Source: Bradyrhizobium sp. 170
Lineage (GTDB): Bacteria > Pseudomonadota > Alphaproteobacteria > Rhizobiales > Xanthobacteraceae
Length of the DNA stretch: 64,000 bases
Assembly: GCF_023101085.1 (NCBI RefSeq)
Contig: NZ_CP064703.1
Coordinates: 1,054,001-1,118,000, forward strand
Reading direction: 5' to 3'
Position 1 is the first letter of the stretch; each line of letters opens with the position of its first letter. The notes below the pieces were generated by a model. It was not told the origin of the DNA. It made no database searches and worked only from the letters and a program-made list of their open reading frames with translations. This document shows, one piece after another, positions 3,023 through 40,035 of this stretch. The position numbers were made by a program, and so were the translations under genes.

Positions 3023-3125
3023 GGTTTACCCCGCACGTTACACGACATGTACCGAATCGGGGCACTCTCGCCTATGGCGATTAACGCACGCTTAATGGTT
3101 GAGAAATGGCCTCATTGAGGCGGGG

Positions 3126-3800
3126 CTAAGCGAGGTGTGGCCAAACCTCCAGCACGCCGCGGTAGCACATGTCGAAGGCCACATAGAGAATGATCGCGAG
3201 GCCGACATAAGCGATCCAGCGGTGCTTTTCCAGGAGGCGCGCGATGAAGTTGGCGGCGAGCCCCATCAGCGCGATGGAGAGTGCCAGGCCGAATATCAGA
3301 ATCATCGGATGCTCGCGCGCCGCGCCCGCGACGGCGAGCACGTTGTCGAGCGACATCGAGACGTCGGCGAGCGTGATCTGCCAGACGGCCTGGCCAAGCG
3401 TCTTTTGATGGCCCGCAGGGGCTGCCCCATCGATCGTGCTTGCTGCCGAGAGACTCTGCAATTTCGGTTCATGATGATGCGACGTACGCAGCTCGCGCCA
3501 CATCTTCCAGCACACCCAAAGCAGCAGAACGCCGCCCGCGAGCAGCAGTCCGATGATTTGCAGCAGTTGAACCGTGACGGACGCGAAGCCGATGCGCAGA
3601 AGCGTTGCGGCCAATATGCCGATCACAATCGCTTTCTTGCGCTGACCCTCGGGAAGCCCGGCGGCTGCGAGCCCGATGACGATCGCATTGTCGCCGGCGA
3701 GCACCAGGTCGATCATGATGACCTGGAAAAGCGCTGTCAGGTGTTGCGAGGAGATTAGTTCCAGCATTCGGGCCACTCCGTTGAAGGTCCAATCCGACAT
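3126..3800 (-). CDS. TerC family integral membrane protein
   Basis: 224-residue polytopic inner-membrane protein of the TerC/YjbE family, whose members are linked to metal (often manganese) export or metallation. Two internally similar halves each hold an acidic membrane motif: DLVLAGDNAIVIGLA near residue 30 and DVSMSLDNVLAVAGAA near 145. About six or seven hydrophobic helices are visible, with a His-containing loop (TSHHHEP) between the halves. The start is the ATG at 3800. I looked for a yybP-ykoY manganese riboswitch upstream and could not support one. The substrate is not deducible. Confidence 0.9.
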   Translation of the reverse strand: MSDWTFNGVARMLELISSQHLTALFQVIMIDLVLAGDNAIVIGLAAAGLPEGQRKKAIVIGILAATLLRIGFASVTVQLLQIIGLLLAGGVLLLWVCWKMWRELRTSHHHEPKLQSLSAASTIDGAAPAGHQKTLGQAVWQITLADVSMSLDNVLAVAGAAREHPMILIFGLALSIALMGLAANFIARLLEKHRWIAYVGLAIILYVAFDMCYRGVLEVWPHLA

Positions 3801-3848
3801 CGCAGTTCGCTTGAACTGCCAGAGGGGCCCGGGCTTGGACGTGCGTAG

Positions 3849-3870
3849 AAAAAGACGCAGTCAGACTGCG
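3849..3870 (-). terminator. Rho-independent terminator after the small membrane protein gene
   Basis: Read on the minus strand, a perfect 6-bp stem CGCAGT-CTG-ACTGCG is followed directly by TCTTTTTCT. It lies 17 bases beyond the stop of the gene at 3887-4228 and before the TerC gene, so it should separate the two transcripts. Confidence 0.55.
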
Positions 3871-3886
3871 GAAAAATGCTTCCCCG

Positions 3887-4228
3887 TTACTCAGGTTGAT
3901 CCGAGAGGGCGAAGAGCCTGACCATCTGGTCCGGTTCGATCAGAACGGAGAGGACGATGCCGATGAACGTCAGGCTTCCGGCGAGGTCGAGCCACATGAC
4001 GCGGAAGCGATCGCGCCGGCAGAGCAGCGCGAAACCGGCCGTCAATGCAGCAACCGCAAAGAGCAGGGTGACGATCGCGGGTGCCAGGGCGTCCACTGGC
4101 ACCACGTTCCGGATACCCACGGTCGCCAGCAGCGCCACGAGCAGGATGCCGGCAAACAACTCCTTGCCGCGGGCCGCGGGGGGCCGGGGATTTGTCTCAA
4201 CAATCTGACTGCGGTCTAAGAAAGCCAT
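3887..4228 (-). CDS. Small membrane protein of unknown function
   Basis: 113 residues with three clear hydrophobic segments (about 27-45, 49-70 and 81-100) and a polar N-terminal tail. I recognise no family. It is divergent from the XRE regulator at 4308, with 79 bases between the two starts, and is followed by a terminator-like hairpin, which supports it as an independent gene. Function unknown; a small inner-membrane protein is the only defensible statement. Confidence 0.65.
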   Translation of the reverse strand: MAFLDRSQIVETNPRPPAARGKELFAGILLVALLATVGIRNVVPVDALAPAIVTLLFAVAALTAGFALLCRRDRFRVMWLDLAGSLTFIGIVLSVLIEPDQMVRLFALSDQPE

Positions 4229-4307
4229 CTGATTCTTATTCGCGAGCTGAGATTGTGGTAGGGAACATCACCTACCCGGTCATTTCACTCTAGATAGTTT
4301 AGTAATC

Positions 4308-4640
4308 ATGAAACGAGGAAAACATCAAGACGTTTTCACTGAACGTCTTCCCGGCAAGGCTGTGCCGGAGGCCAAGCAATTGCGGAAACTGGCTGGGGAT
4401 TGGCTCAAGCTGCGCAGGGCGGATGCCGAATTGTCGCAGGCGGATCTCGCTGCACGTCTTGGCCTGAAGTATTATACTTTCATCTCACAGGTCGAGAACG
4501 GCTTCAGCCGGGTTCCAACTGAAATCATGGGGGCATGGGCCAACGAATTGGGTATTGAACAGTCAGCCTTCGCGAAGCATCTGTTAATGTACTACGAGCC
4601 GGAATTGTACCGGCTGCTGTTCGGAGCGGAAAGCAAATGA
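4308..4640 (+). CDS. XRE-type helix-turn-helix regulator
   Basis: 110-residue DNA-binding protein. The helix-turn-helix lies at about residues 39-66 (LSQADLAARLGLKYYTFISQ), followed by an unusual C-terminal helix ending in YYEPELYRLLFGAES. Its stop overlaps the start of the next gene by four bases (ATGA), so the two are translationally coupled. An imperfect inverted repeat, GTAGG-N8-CCTAC, lies upstream at about 4258-4275, between this gene and the divergent membrane-protein gene, and may be its operator (inference). It resembles antitoxin-like regulators, but the partner is no known toxin. Confidence 0.85.
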   Translation: MKRGKHQDVFTERLPGKAVPEAKQLRKLAGDWLKLRRADAELSQADLAARLGLKYYTFISQVENGFSRVPTEIMGAWANELGIEQSAFAKHLLMYYEPELYRLLFGAESK

Positions 4641-17660: not shown

Positions 17661-17760
17661 TAGAGCGTTTTCGAGCGAAGTGGACACCCGGTTCGCGTCA
17701 AGAAAACGCGTCAAACAAGAATCTAGAGCCCGGTTCTGATTAGATCAGAACCGGGCTCTA
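17661..17760. repeat. Palindromic repeat (family 1), full copy, between aqpZ and purK
   Basis: About 100 bases with two parts: a block containing AGCGTTTTCGAGCGAAGTGG and GCGTCAAGAAAACGCGTCAAA, then a perfect 17-bp stem (17724-17740 / 17744-17760, TAGAGCCCGGTTCTGAT) with a TAG loop. The whole is shared in part with 15409-15475, 39968-40029 and 50068-50141. It ends three bases before the purK stop and can terminate both convergent genes. Confidence 0.85.
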
Positions 17761-37638: not shown

Positions 37639-38453
37639 TGGCCGGCAAGGTCAACAGGCTGTCGCCATTCAACATCACCGCGCTCACGCTCGGGATGGCG
37701 TTTCTGTACCTGCCGATCGTAATCCTCATCATTTATTCCTTTAACGCCTCGCGGCTGGTCACGGTGTGGGGCGGCTGGTCGCTGCGCTGGTACCATGAGT
37801 TCTTCAACGATCGCGCGATGCTGGATGCGGCATGGATGAGCCTTCGTGTCGCCGCGGTATCGGCCACGATCGCAACGCTGCTCGGTACGCTGGCTGCTGT
37901 CGGGCTGGTCCGCGGCGAGCGCTTCAAGGGACGGTCGCTGTTTTCCGGCATGCTTTATGCGCCGCTGGTGATGCCGGAGGTGATCTCGGGACTTTCGCTG
38001 CTGTTGCTGTTCGTGGCGCTGAACGCCGAGCGCGGCTTCTGGACGGTGACGATCGCCCACACCACGCTGACCATGTGCTTCGTGACCGTGGTGGTGCAGT
38101 CGCGCCTCGCCTCGCTCGACCGCAGCCTCGAAGAGGCCGCGATGGATCTCGGCTGCGATCCGGTGCAGGCCTTTCTTCGCGTGACCTTGCCGCTGATTAT
38201 TCCGGCGATTGCCGCCGGCTGGATGCTGGCCTTCACGCTCTCGCTCGACGACGTCGTGATCGCGAGTTTCACCACCGGTCCAGGCTCGGCGACGCTGCCG
38301 ATCCGGATCTATTCCGAGGTGCGGCTCGGGGTAAAGCCCGAGATCAACGCGATCTGCACCATGGTGATCGCGCTGATCGCGGTGGTCATCGTGATCGCTT
38401 CGCTCGCCTCGAAACTGTCGAGCTCGCAGGCCAAGAGCGCGGCGCCGCTGTAA
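37638..38453 (+). CDS. potI: Polyamine ABC importer permease 2
   Basis: 271 residues with six hydrophobic helices. EAA motif EEAAMDLGCDPVQAFLRVTL is intact, and LDDVVIASFTTGPGSATLPI matches PotI/PotC. The start ATG at 37638 shares one base with the stop of the previous gene (TGATG), after GGAGGGA. It completes the potG-potH-potI operon. No further gene of this system follows; about 240 bases separate it from the peptidase gene. Confidence 0.92.
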   Translation: MAGKVNRLSPFNITALTLGMAFLYLPIVILIIYSFNASRLVTVWGGWSLRWYHEFFNDRAMLDAAWMSLRVAAVSATIATLLGTLAAVGLVRGERFKGRSLFSGMLYAPLVMPEVISGLSLLLLFVALNAERGFWTVTIAHTTLTMCFVTVVVQSRLASLDRSLEEAAMDLGCDPVQAFLRVTLPLIIPAIAAGWMLAFTLSLDDVVIASFTTGPGSATLPIRIYSEVRLGVKPEINAICTMVIALIAVVIVIASLASKLSSSQAKSAAPL

Positions 38454-38689
38454 GAGCCACCGCCTGTTTCGCAAAGCGCTGACGCCTCGGGTCTGAAGCC
38501 CCGCCGCGCGCCCATCACGGAATCGTGCGGACAATTTTCTATCTGAACGTGCGCCAGTTCATACTCCTTCGCTTTCGTTGCAACGCAAAAGTGATGGCGT
38601 TTGGATTTGCTGGGAAATCGTTTCCAAAATTCTTGTCGGCCTTCCGCGATTTTTTCGCGTGGTTCCTCATGTCACCAGGAGAATTCATC

Positions 38690-39523
38690 ATGGCCAAGTC
38701 CAAGAAAGTCCTCGACAAGTCGTCGAGTTCGAGACCGGAGTCGCATCGCATTTGCAATGTGGTGCCCTCGCGCAATACCGAAACCGACTGGGCGGCGGAA
38801 GATGCCATCGCGGCCGGTGCTGCAGCGGCACCGCTCGCCGCGCCGCCGGCCAGCGTCGATCTTCGCCAGCCTTGGTGGGATATCGGCAATCAGGAATCGA
38901 CCGGCTCCTGCGTCGGCTGGGGTTCGACCGATGGCGTCGCCCGCTATCATTTCGTCAAGGCCAATAGGCTCGCCCAGAACGCAAAGCTTTCGCCGCGGTT
39001 TACCTGGATGGGGTCGAAGGAAACCGACGAATTCACCTCCAGGCCGGAAACGATGATCGAAGGCGCCGGCACCAGCCTGAAGGCCGCGGTGGAGATCTTG
39101 CGGAAATACGGCGCAGTGCCGGAGACGCTGATGCCCTTCCACATCCAGACCAACATGTATCTGGGCAATGAGAACACGTTCTACGCCACCGCGGCGACGC
39201 GCAAGATCGCCTCCTATGTCAACATGCAGCGCAATCTGGCGAGCTGGCGGTCGTGGCTGGCAAGCAATGGTCCGATCCTGGTGGCGCTCAGTGTCGACCA
39301 GACCTGGGACAACGCGACTGCGACGCGTGGCAAGCTTGATACGTTCATGCCGGCGACCGCTCGCGGCGGCCATGCCGTCTGCTGTGTTGGATATACCGCC
39401 GACCGCCGCTTCATCCTCCGCAACAGCTGGGGTACGGCTTGGGGCGACAAGGGCTTTGCCTATGCCAGCGAGGCCTATATCAATGCAGGGTTCTTTAACG
39501 AGAGCTATGGCGTGACGATTTGA
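38690..39523 (+). CDS. Papain-like (family C1) cysteine peptidase
   Basis: 277 residues from the ATG at 38690 (AGGAG six bases upstream). The papain triad and oxyanion residues are all present: Gln68 and Cys74 in GNQESTGSCVGWGS, His228 in RGGHAVCCVGY and Asn245 in FILRNSWGTAWGDKGF. There is no signal peptide and no typical pro-domain, only a Ser/Ala-rich 55-residue N-terminus. A chagasin-type inhibitor gene follows after 21 bases, so the two form an operon. Natural substrates are unknown. Confidence 0.9.
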   Translation: MAKSKKVLDKSSSSRPESHRICNVVPSRNTETDWAAEDAIAAGAAAAPLAAPPASVDLRQPWWDIGNQESTGSCVGWGSTDGVARYHFVKANRLAQNAKLSPRFTWMGSKETDEFTSRPETMIEGAGTSLKAAVEILRKYGAVPETLMPFHIQTNMYLGNENTFYATAATRKIASYVNMQRNLASWRSWLASNGPILVALSVDQTWDNATATRGKLDTFMPATARGGHAVCCVGYTADRRFILRNSWGTAWGDKGFAYASEAYINAGFFNESYGVTI

Positions 39524-39544
39524 CCGCAGGAGATTGACGACCCC

Positions 39545-39967
39545 TTGAGCCGATGGAACCTTCCCGTCCGGGTGCGCGTTGCCGCGCTGTTGGGTGCAAT
39601 CCTGTTGCACGCCACCGGCGCGGTCGCTGCCGAAACCGGGACACGAATCATGCAGTCGCTGACAGAGGCGGACAACGACCGGACGGTCGACTTGCGCGTC
39701 GGCGAGAGCGTGCGCGTCAGCCTGCCGGAGAACGCGACCACCGGCTACCGGTGGGCGGTCGATCGTCTCGATCAGGCCGTCGTCGAGCCGGCCGGGTCGG
39801 AGCAGACCTATCCCGGTGGCGCCATAGGCTCTGCCGGTCATGTCACGTTCGATTTCAGGGCGAAGAAGGCCGGCAGCGGCGAGATCGCACTGAAATACTG
39901 GCGGCACTTCGAAGGCGAGGGATCGATCGTCAAGCGATTTCGCTTCCGTCTCAATGCGAAGCCGTAG
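39545..39967 (+). CDS. Chagasin-type (I42) cysteine peptidase inhibitor, exported
   Basis: 140 residues from a TTG at 39545, about 11 bases after an AGGAGA site; no better start is available because it leaves the signal peptide intact (VAALLGAILLHATGAVA, cleavage near residue 29). The mature part has the inhibitor loops of family I42: NATTGYRW (63-70) and, later, a variant of the Arg-Pro-Trp loop (KYWRHFEG, 117-124). It should block papain-like enzymes in the periplasm. Encoded directly after a C1 peptidase, its likely target. Confidence 0.85.
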   Translation: MSRWNLPVRVRVAALLGAILLHATGAVAAETGTRIMQSLTEADNDRTVDLRVGESVRVSLPENATTGYRWAVDRLDQAVVEPAGSEQTYPGGAIGSAGHVTFDFRAKKAGSGEIALKYWRHFEGEGSIVKRFRFRLNAKP

Positions 39968-40029
39968 ATTCTTGTTTTGACGCGTTTTCTTCACGCGAAC
40001 CGGCATCCACTTCGCTCGGAAACGCTATA
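39968..40029. repeat. Palindromic repeat (family 1), partial copy
   Basis: The reverse complement contains AGCGTTTCCGAGCGAAGTGG, CCGGTTCGCG and GAAAACGCGTCAAAACAAGA, matching the left half of the element at 17661-17760. The distal hairpin is missing. It fills the junction between the convergent inhibitor and sugar-permease genes. Confidence 0.75.
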
Positions 40030-40035
40030 GCCGCA

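Follow-up and report, generated by a model that had tools for sequence, protein, structure and literature searches.

In Bradyrhizobium sp. 170, a gene for a papain-like peptidase and a gene for a chagasin-type (family I42) inhibitor together form an accessory two-gene cassette. We regard it as an about even prospect that this cassette is a mobile, cognate enzyme-inhibitor pair whose inhibitor gene has two starts, one for a form that is exported and one for a form that stays in the cytosol. The window in which the pair was found is a stretch of 64,000 nucleotides (contig NZ_CP064703.1, positions 1,054,001 to 1,118,000), and all coordinates given here are positions within it.

The first gene (38690..39523, + strand; ATG start, TGA stop) encodes 277 residues in which no signal peptide was seen. 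Its product matches PF00112 with E 2.2e-16 and 61.1 bits, against a curated cut-off of 20.7, and the complete triad named in a preliminary description of this DNA (Cys74, His228 and Asn245) is present together with the oxyanion residue Gln68; by these marks the protein belongs to the C1A (papain) family. The gene thus encodes an intact C1A peptidase of putative proteolytic activity. Its nearest solved structure is xylellain (3ois), the best match both structurally and by sequence in the PDB, and here the N-terminal extension aligns as well; identity to xylellain, and to short bacterial C1A peptidases, is only 20-22%. This conserved extension of about 50 residues aligns in the structural model with the xylellain N-terminus and with part of zymogen propeptides. 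Taking first and last aligned residues only, model residues 10 to 279 fall on xylellain 23 to 290, and model residues 11 to 280 on procathepsin B 31P to 254. The alignment of cassette peptidases shows a conserved N-terminal motif at residues 20-34 (RICNVVPSRNTETDW; 38747..38791, + strand). Xylellain's own N-terminus partly covers its active site. Since the alignment with the xylellain N-terminus and with propeptides begins at residue 10, the motif may possibly act as a short, built-in autoinhibitory segment, and the earlier statement that the enzyme has no pro-domain may be only half right.

The second gene follows after 21 bases, and the coordinates first given for both genes proved correct. 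In its long form, with leader, the inhibitor runs from a TTG start to the end of a 140-residue frame (39545..39967, + strand) and matches PF09394 with E 1.8e-19 (70.2 bits; curated cut-off 27.2); its PDB relatives are 2wgn, 2cio and chagasin. Membership in I42 is further borne out by the three inhibitory loops, NATTG, GSAG and RHF, the third of them unlike RPW. Loop L2 (NATTG, residues 63-67; 39731..39745, + strand) is invariant in 22 of 22 aligned inhibitors, as are G95 and G98 of loop L4 (GSAG, residues 95-98; 39827..39838, + strand). The third loop, L6 (WRHFEG, residues 119-124; 39899..39916, + strand), had been called changed. It does read RHF where chagasin has RPW, but it is not peculiar to this gene, because all 22 of the 22 near relatives share WRHFEG without change and the loop differs between clades; more distant cassette inhibitors have R-x-W, in which x is H, S, Q, R or, in several, P. 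We take the L6 aromatic to be the equivalent of chagasin W93, and at this putative W93 place the Bradyrhizobium group has Phe and most other cassette inhibitors have Trp. The W93A exchange in chagasin lowers its affinity for cathepsin L 100-fold (PMC2607524).

The linkage between protease and inhibitor is well supported by sequence data. The 9.2 Mb genome holds a single PF00112 match and a single PF09394 match at E <= 0.001, and both lie at this locus, so that chance adjacency is very unlikely. With only one C1 peptidase in the genome, the earlier suggestion that the inhibitor guards against a secreted sister enzyme falls away here. Scanning a species-genome collection with an alignment of 28 peptidases yielded 65 homologous loci (49-90% identity). 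Conserved adjacency, which the preliminary description had proposed to look for in related genomes, was evident: an I42 frame follows directly downstream on the same strand at 40 of the 65 loci. These 40 share the adjacent, co-directional and recurrent arrangement of staphopain-staphostatin genes, and are presumably co-transcribed like them. At the other 25 there is no I42 frame directly downstream, six of these having less than 1 kb of downstream sequence. The paired rows span five named phyla, Chlorobi and Cyanobacteria included, with isolates from Pseudomonadota, Acidobacteriota and Actinomycetota; many other paired rows are metagenome bins, which can hold foreign contigs. The cassette apparently spreads horizontally between distant bacteria, a reading for which tree group counts by themselves are no proof.

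The peptidase tree comprises 64 rows, namely the window's and those of 63 of the 65 loci; left out were L109, in which two frames share the peptidase between them, and L114, which matched only in part. In its large clade the partner lies directly downstream in 39 of 50 rows, and in a basal clade of 14 rows it does so in none of the 11 that were testable (three were untestable). Two basal loci, L103 and L110, instead have an I42 frame upstream of the peptidase on the opposite strand. Cassette-clade peptidases with no downstream I42 frame tend to sit on longer end branches (for example 0.82 for L097, 0.67 for L099 and 0.58 for L096), in a tree uncorrected for uneven sampling. Loss of catalytic residues in partner-less enzymes can be ruled out, because the Gln, Cys, His and Asn are kept in all 64 aligned rows, the window's among them. 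Among the 25 loci whose cassette-type peptidase has no I42 downstream, 22 genomes were searched and 11 of them had an I42 gene somewhere, these 11 including the I42 beside the peptidase in L103 and, probably, in L110. The corresponding figure among phylum-scan genomes was 29 of 398 (Fisher 4.9e-7), a rough comparison since the 22 genomes span many phyla. With no I42 directly downstream at 25 of 65 loci, and none anywhere in 11 of 22 genomes, the enzyme can evidently exist without the partner.

Within the same family, C1 was found in 24 and I42 in 25 of 248 genomes, and both in 11. In six of these 11, the window's own included, the two genes lie on one contig within about 1.5 kb; in one of the six the genes converge, and three of the six C1 genes are only distantly related to the cassette type. 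Seventeen other paired genomes were selected from among the 40; in 13 of them the cassette supplies the sole C1 peptidase, which speaks for that enzyme as the inhibitor's target. Several loci show other arrangements. At L058 (7998-11856), two different C1-I42 pairs stand in tandem, the first of cassette type and the second consisting of a 672-residue C1 protein and a second, divergent I42 frame. Two further genomes show the reverse order, with a distant C1 gene directly preceded by an I42-like frame: L049 (583-2453) in G168, of the same family, and L167 (808-2505) in G784, of the same class. Linkage of C1 and I42 may therefore have arisen more than once. In Edaphobacter aggregans (L109, 7791-8796), the inhibitor frame is open beside the peptidase split over two reading frames.

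Distances between peptidases and between inhibitors are correlated across 39 pairs (r 0.62, 0 of 2000 permutations), and in 459 cross-phylum comparisons as well (r 0.47), the inhibitor diverging faster (median distance 0.60 versus 0.33 for the peptidase). This co-divergence bears on the possibility that the inhibitor is aimed at foreign papain-like proteases, of plants or competitors, and that the neighbouring enzyme is a separate tool. Stand-alone exported I42 genes do occur in the same family and phylum, and Cip1 of Pseudomonas syringae inhibits tomato immune proteases (PMC5014320). What speaks against such a target is that cassette inhibitors are paired in a fixed order, and co-diverge, with a single type of enzyme in several phyla, Chlorobi and Cyanobacteria among them, as does the tendency of L6 to differ, with overlap, between cassette and stand-alone inhibitors. 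We therefore give the foreign-target explanation little credence.

A cassette-type inhibitor was found in five of 242 same-genus genomes, the window's own included, and the peptidase lies beside it in the other four. We scanned 24 same-genus relatives with 4.5 kb of the window and worked out flank spacings from the match coordinates. One relative (G268) carries the whole stretch at 90% and another (G263) a diverged version at 77%. In 19 of the 24, both flanks lie on one contig and the cassette is absent, none of these 19 matching the inhibitor profile; two further relatives have the flanks on different contigs, and one has no clear flanks. The flanks are at most 112 bases apart in six of the 19 (G251, G255, G256, G257, G259 and G262), and the remaining empty sites hold about 0.3 to 4.3 kb of other DNA. 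Measured against the empty site in G257, where the flanks match query positions 1-1450 and 3024-4494 with a 4-base overlap, the cassette extends over 38450..40022. An element of about 75 bases at 39957-40033 overlaps the end of the inhibitor gene and lies at the cassette's right edge. It has many dispersed copies in this genome and in relatives, mostly at 85-98% identity, with a second copy of the core at 17688-17712.

Large general families aside (for example ABC ATPases, at 16 loci), the neighbours that recur beside the cassette do so mainly in groups confined to Chlorobi or to Mycolicibacter. A phage origin gained no support, as viral contig scans with both alignments confirmed no relative; INPHARED gave two distant matches, and the plasmid set gave ten, the best at 49% identity. 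The idea of a defence island likewise drew no support from PADLOC or from looks at the neighbours. PADLOC matched neither the window's pair nor one Mycolicibacter pair, and in a set of 54 neighbour proteins, chosen by eye out of 144, eight of its families match one to five members each, with RtcR-type sigma-54 regulators in five and mad proteins in one or two. A separate case is L103 (2334-3140), from a Chloroflexi bin in the basal clade, where the I42 gene just upstream on the opposite strand is joined by a gp19-type tail tube gene (T4; PF06841, E 1.8e-41) just downstream; this homologue is possibly the cargo of a contractile injection system.

A hydrophobic N-terminus is absent from all 64 peptidases when the Met closest to the RICN motif is taken as the start. 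The claim that the window's enzyme lacks a signal needs qualifying, since its frame is open upstream as far as a GTG at 38525, but it holds in that this extension nowhere becomes strongly hydrophobic (maximum over 12 residues 1.45). In 37 of the 64 rows the peptidase could not begin further upstream; in 27 it could. Eight of these 27, the window not among them, have an upstream hydrophobic stretch, and the stretches share no visible homology; export of the enzyme is thus conceivable at some loci, and a hidden exported peptidase is impossible in the 37 and unconvincing in the other 27. Most of the peptidases (57 of 64) hold just two to four cysteines, which fits a reducing compartment.

The inhibitor is a different matter. 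That it is exported, as first described, agrees with the leader encoded at 39545..39649 (+ strand), which is open in frame and hydrophobic and comprises a Sec-like signal peptide (RVAALLGAILLHATGAVAAE, by eye) and a variable linker; the frame opens with the TTG at 39545. Among cassette inhibitors generally, the leader is Sec-like (as in the window), lipobox-like or missing. We assessed the leader's reading frame at 32 loci with at least 60 bases between the peptidase stop and the ATG of the domain; five loci with fewer than 60 bases and four with no such ATG fell outside this set. Of the 32, 25 have an open region in the inhibitor frame and 27 a hydrophobic one, and 21 have both features. For the two remaining frames the numbers are 10 and 5 open and 2 and 2 hydrophobic, and neither frame combines the two features at any of the 32 loci. 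Four groups of close relatives were aligned; three of them show internal leader indels, each 3 bases long, and one shows none. A lipobox-like cysteine, by a loose pattern, ends 19 of 26 hydrophobic leaders. These comparisons show the leader to be in-frame coding sequence in most members.

Its substitutions tell less of constraint. In the Bradyrhizobium set, rates by codon position are nearly flat in the leader (0.24, 0.24 and 0.28), as against 0.03, 0.07 and 0.38 over the 60 bases that open the domain, and leader omega ranges from about 0.4 to above 4, with many values near 1, compared with 0.11-0.34 for the domain. The leader thus appears to be translated yet under loose constraint, in contrast to the tightly conserved domain and its ATG. 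Because leader substitutions hardly respect codon position, it may be decaying or weakly used. This would suit an inhibitor that is cytosolic only, with the internal ATG as its true start and the upstream frame either mis-called or a vestigial leader. Omega near 1 is in keeping with that explanation, as are cassettes with no usual upstream start codon (L052 and L055) or no clear hydrophobic stretch (L052 and L053), and the six relatives of 104-105 residues, the length expected from the internal ATG, among the 120 database relatives listed. It is hard to reconcile with the frame test, which finds an open and hydrophobic leader in frame at 21 of 32 loci and at none in each other frame, and with leader indels in multiples of three and recurring lipobox-like cysteines; we consider it distinctly improbable.

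The internal ATG itself, at codon 36, would open a proposed short cytosolic form of 105 residues (39650..39967, + strand), its use as a start being suggested by conservation. Among distinct inhibitors with a hydrophobic leader, a Met at the domain boundary is present in 28 of 30 with a C1 gene as neighbour (27 of 29 if the second, unlike pair of L058 is left out) and in 7 of 41 stand-alone ones (Fisher 4.8e-11, which, like the binomial value below, overstates the evidence because the rows are related). In six of those seven stand-alone cases the methionine falls, by eye, within the hydrophobic core. A second, overlapping count gave 35 of 39 cassette and 9 of 45 stand-alone inhibitors, the latter set leaving out two cassette copies and one convergent neighbour. 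From the boundary Met to the conserved loop there are 29, 30, 31, 32, 34 or 35 residues, and such a varying distance fits a start codon rather than a buried structural residue. Five leaderless inhibitors point the same way. In L070, L073, L074, L075 and L076, three of them from Mycolicibacter, the boundary Met is the first Met after the peptidase. Four members count against it: in leaderless L077 and L091 the first Met lies about ten residues upstream of the boundary, and in L085 and L086 a leader is present and the boundary Met is absent.

Ribosome-binding signals were less uniform. A strong Shine-Dalgarno sequence, in the best tenth of the locus background, precedes the internal ATG at 8 of 26 leader loci (binomial p 0.003) and at 2 of 11 other loci. 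Averaged over loci, pairing ahead of the internal ATG is no stronger than the background (mean percentile 0.46), and the window's own is only moderate (-4.0 kcal/mol, percentile 0.26); the Shine-Dalgarno sequence is therefore no general proof of an internal start. Internal starts give cytosolic forms of HBP35, for which PilB is cited as a like case (PMC2907840). The inhibitor gene appears able to yield both an exported and an internal form, of which the internal one would explain how the inhibitor meets an enzyme that stays inside the cell.

These features also weigh on the simpler view that the inhibitor is exported only and the internal Met unused, the enzyme acting after lysis or leaving by a non-Sec route while a periplasmic or lipoprotein inhibitor shields survivors and kin. 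The 21 of 32 in-frame, hydrophobic leaders and the 19 of 26 lipobox-like cysteines agree with it, and Bacteroides C10 proteases share operons with exported or lipoprotein inhibitors (PMC3462683). It leaves the boundary ATG at varying offsets and the leaderless members unexplained, and limited looks beside the cassettes turned up no recurring secretion system. Tat hitch-hiking of the enzyme with the inhibitor was set aside for the window, whose leader has by eye no twin arginine. We hold export alone to be unlikely, if worth keeping in mind.

On the reading we favour, the cassette would couple a C1A peptidase of xylellain type, resident in the cytosol, with an I42 inhibitor dedicated to it, both probably made from one transcript. 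Initiation at the upstream TTG (39545) would give the form with a signal peptide, elsewhere a lipobox, which would guard the envelope, perhaps against peptidase set free when sister cells lyse. Initiation at the internal ATG (39650) would give the leaderless form, restraining the co-made enzyme in the cytosol up to the moment of its use or release; members that have no leader, those of Mycolicibacter and a few more, would retain the cytosolic form alone. We infer, for the window, binding of the enzyme by the inhibitor, the use of both starts, co-transcription and a trigger. Two natural pairs folded as one chain gave confidently modelled domains (mean pLDDT values of 90.2 and 91.8) and pTM values of 0.68 and 0.73, about what we would estimate for two undocked domains; the fused chains were not confidently docked, and the models speak neither for nor against binding. 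Self-protection, as the preliminary description had proposed, fits the pair. The opposition it drew between a signal-less enzyme and a periplasmic inhibitor is probably false, since most inhibitor genes hold the internal ATG and some members have no leader at all. A bolder version, to which we attach only a very slight probability, casts the pair as a mobile addiction- or sentinel-like module with the cytosolic protease as poison and an antidote split by the two starts between cytosol and envelope, sensing the state of export or of the envelope. Were this true, a shift in translation start or in export would alter the level of free enzyme.

Bacterial C1A peptidases are spottily distributed, and the intracellular ones lack signal peptides (PMC10380794). 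In the literature titles and abstract openings covered, which leave most subscription journals outside, we found no description of an I42-C1 operon. Through a recurring cassette that pairs it with an endogenous C1A enzyme, I42 would gain a natural bacterial target, unlike host-directed Cip1, and kinetics and structural work would gain a cognate pair. If both starts are used, the cassette would also show clearly, in a bacterium, how a single inhibitor gene can protect two compartments.

Known protease-inhibitor pairs offer several points of comparison. Staphopain- and SpeB-type enzymes are secreted, and cassette peptidases do not show the combination of signal peptide and pro-domain that marks a secreted, staphopain-type enzyme. 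In the staphopain-staphostatin and SpeB-Spi systems, the genes for protease and cognate inhibitor are contiguous and co-transcribed, and inhibitors of this type are thought to shield the producer's cytoplasm (PMC3462683); they belong to other, unrelated families, and the cassette enzyme has no signal. The C10 proteases of Bacteroides and their inhibitors Bti and Bfi also have adjacent genes, with exported and lipoprotein inhibitors, but those enzymes carry a leader and propeptide, and both the peptidase and the inhibitor families differ from those of the cassette (PMC3462683). Cip1 is an exported bacterial I42 protein like the window's long form; it acts on plant immune proteases, and no partner enzyme is described in the passages covered (PMC5014320). 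Chagasin has the three-loop set in common with the window's inhibitor, whereas the latter adjoins its presumed target, has a leader and an internal ATG, and carries RHF rather than RPW. Chagasins of protozoa are made with no signal peptide and keep the organism's own enzymes in check, and those of Pseudomonas carry a putative signal (PMC5014320). The cassette inhibitor gene seems to unite both habits, the signal-less one of protozoa and the signal-bearing one of Pseudomonas.
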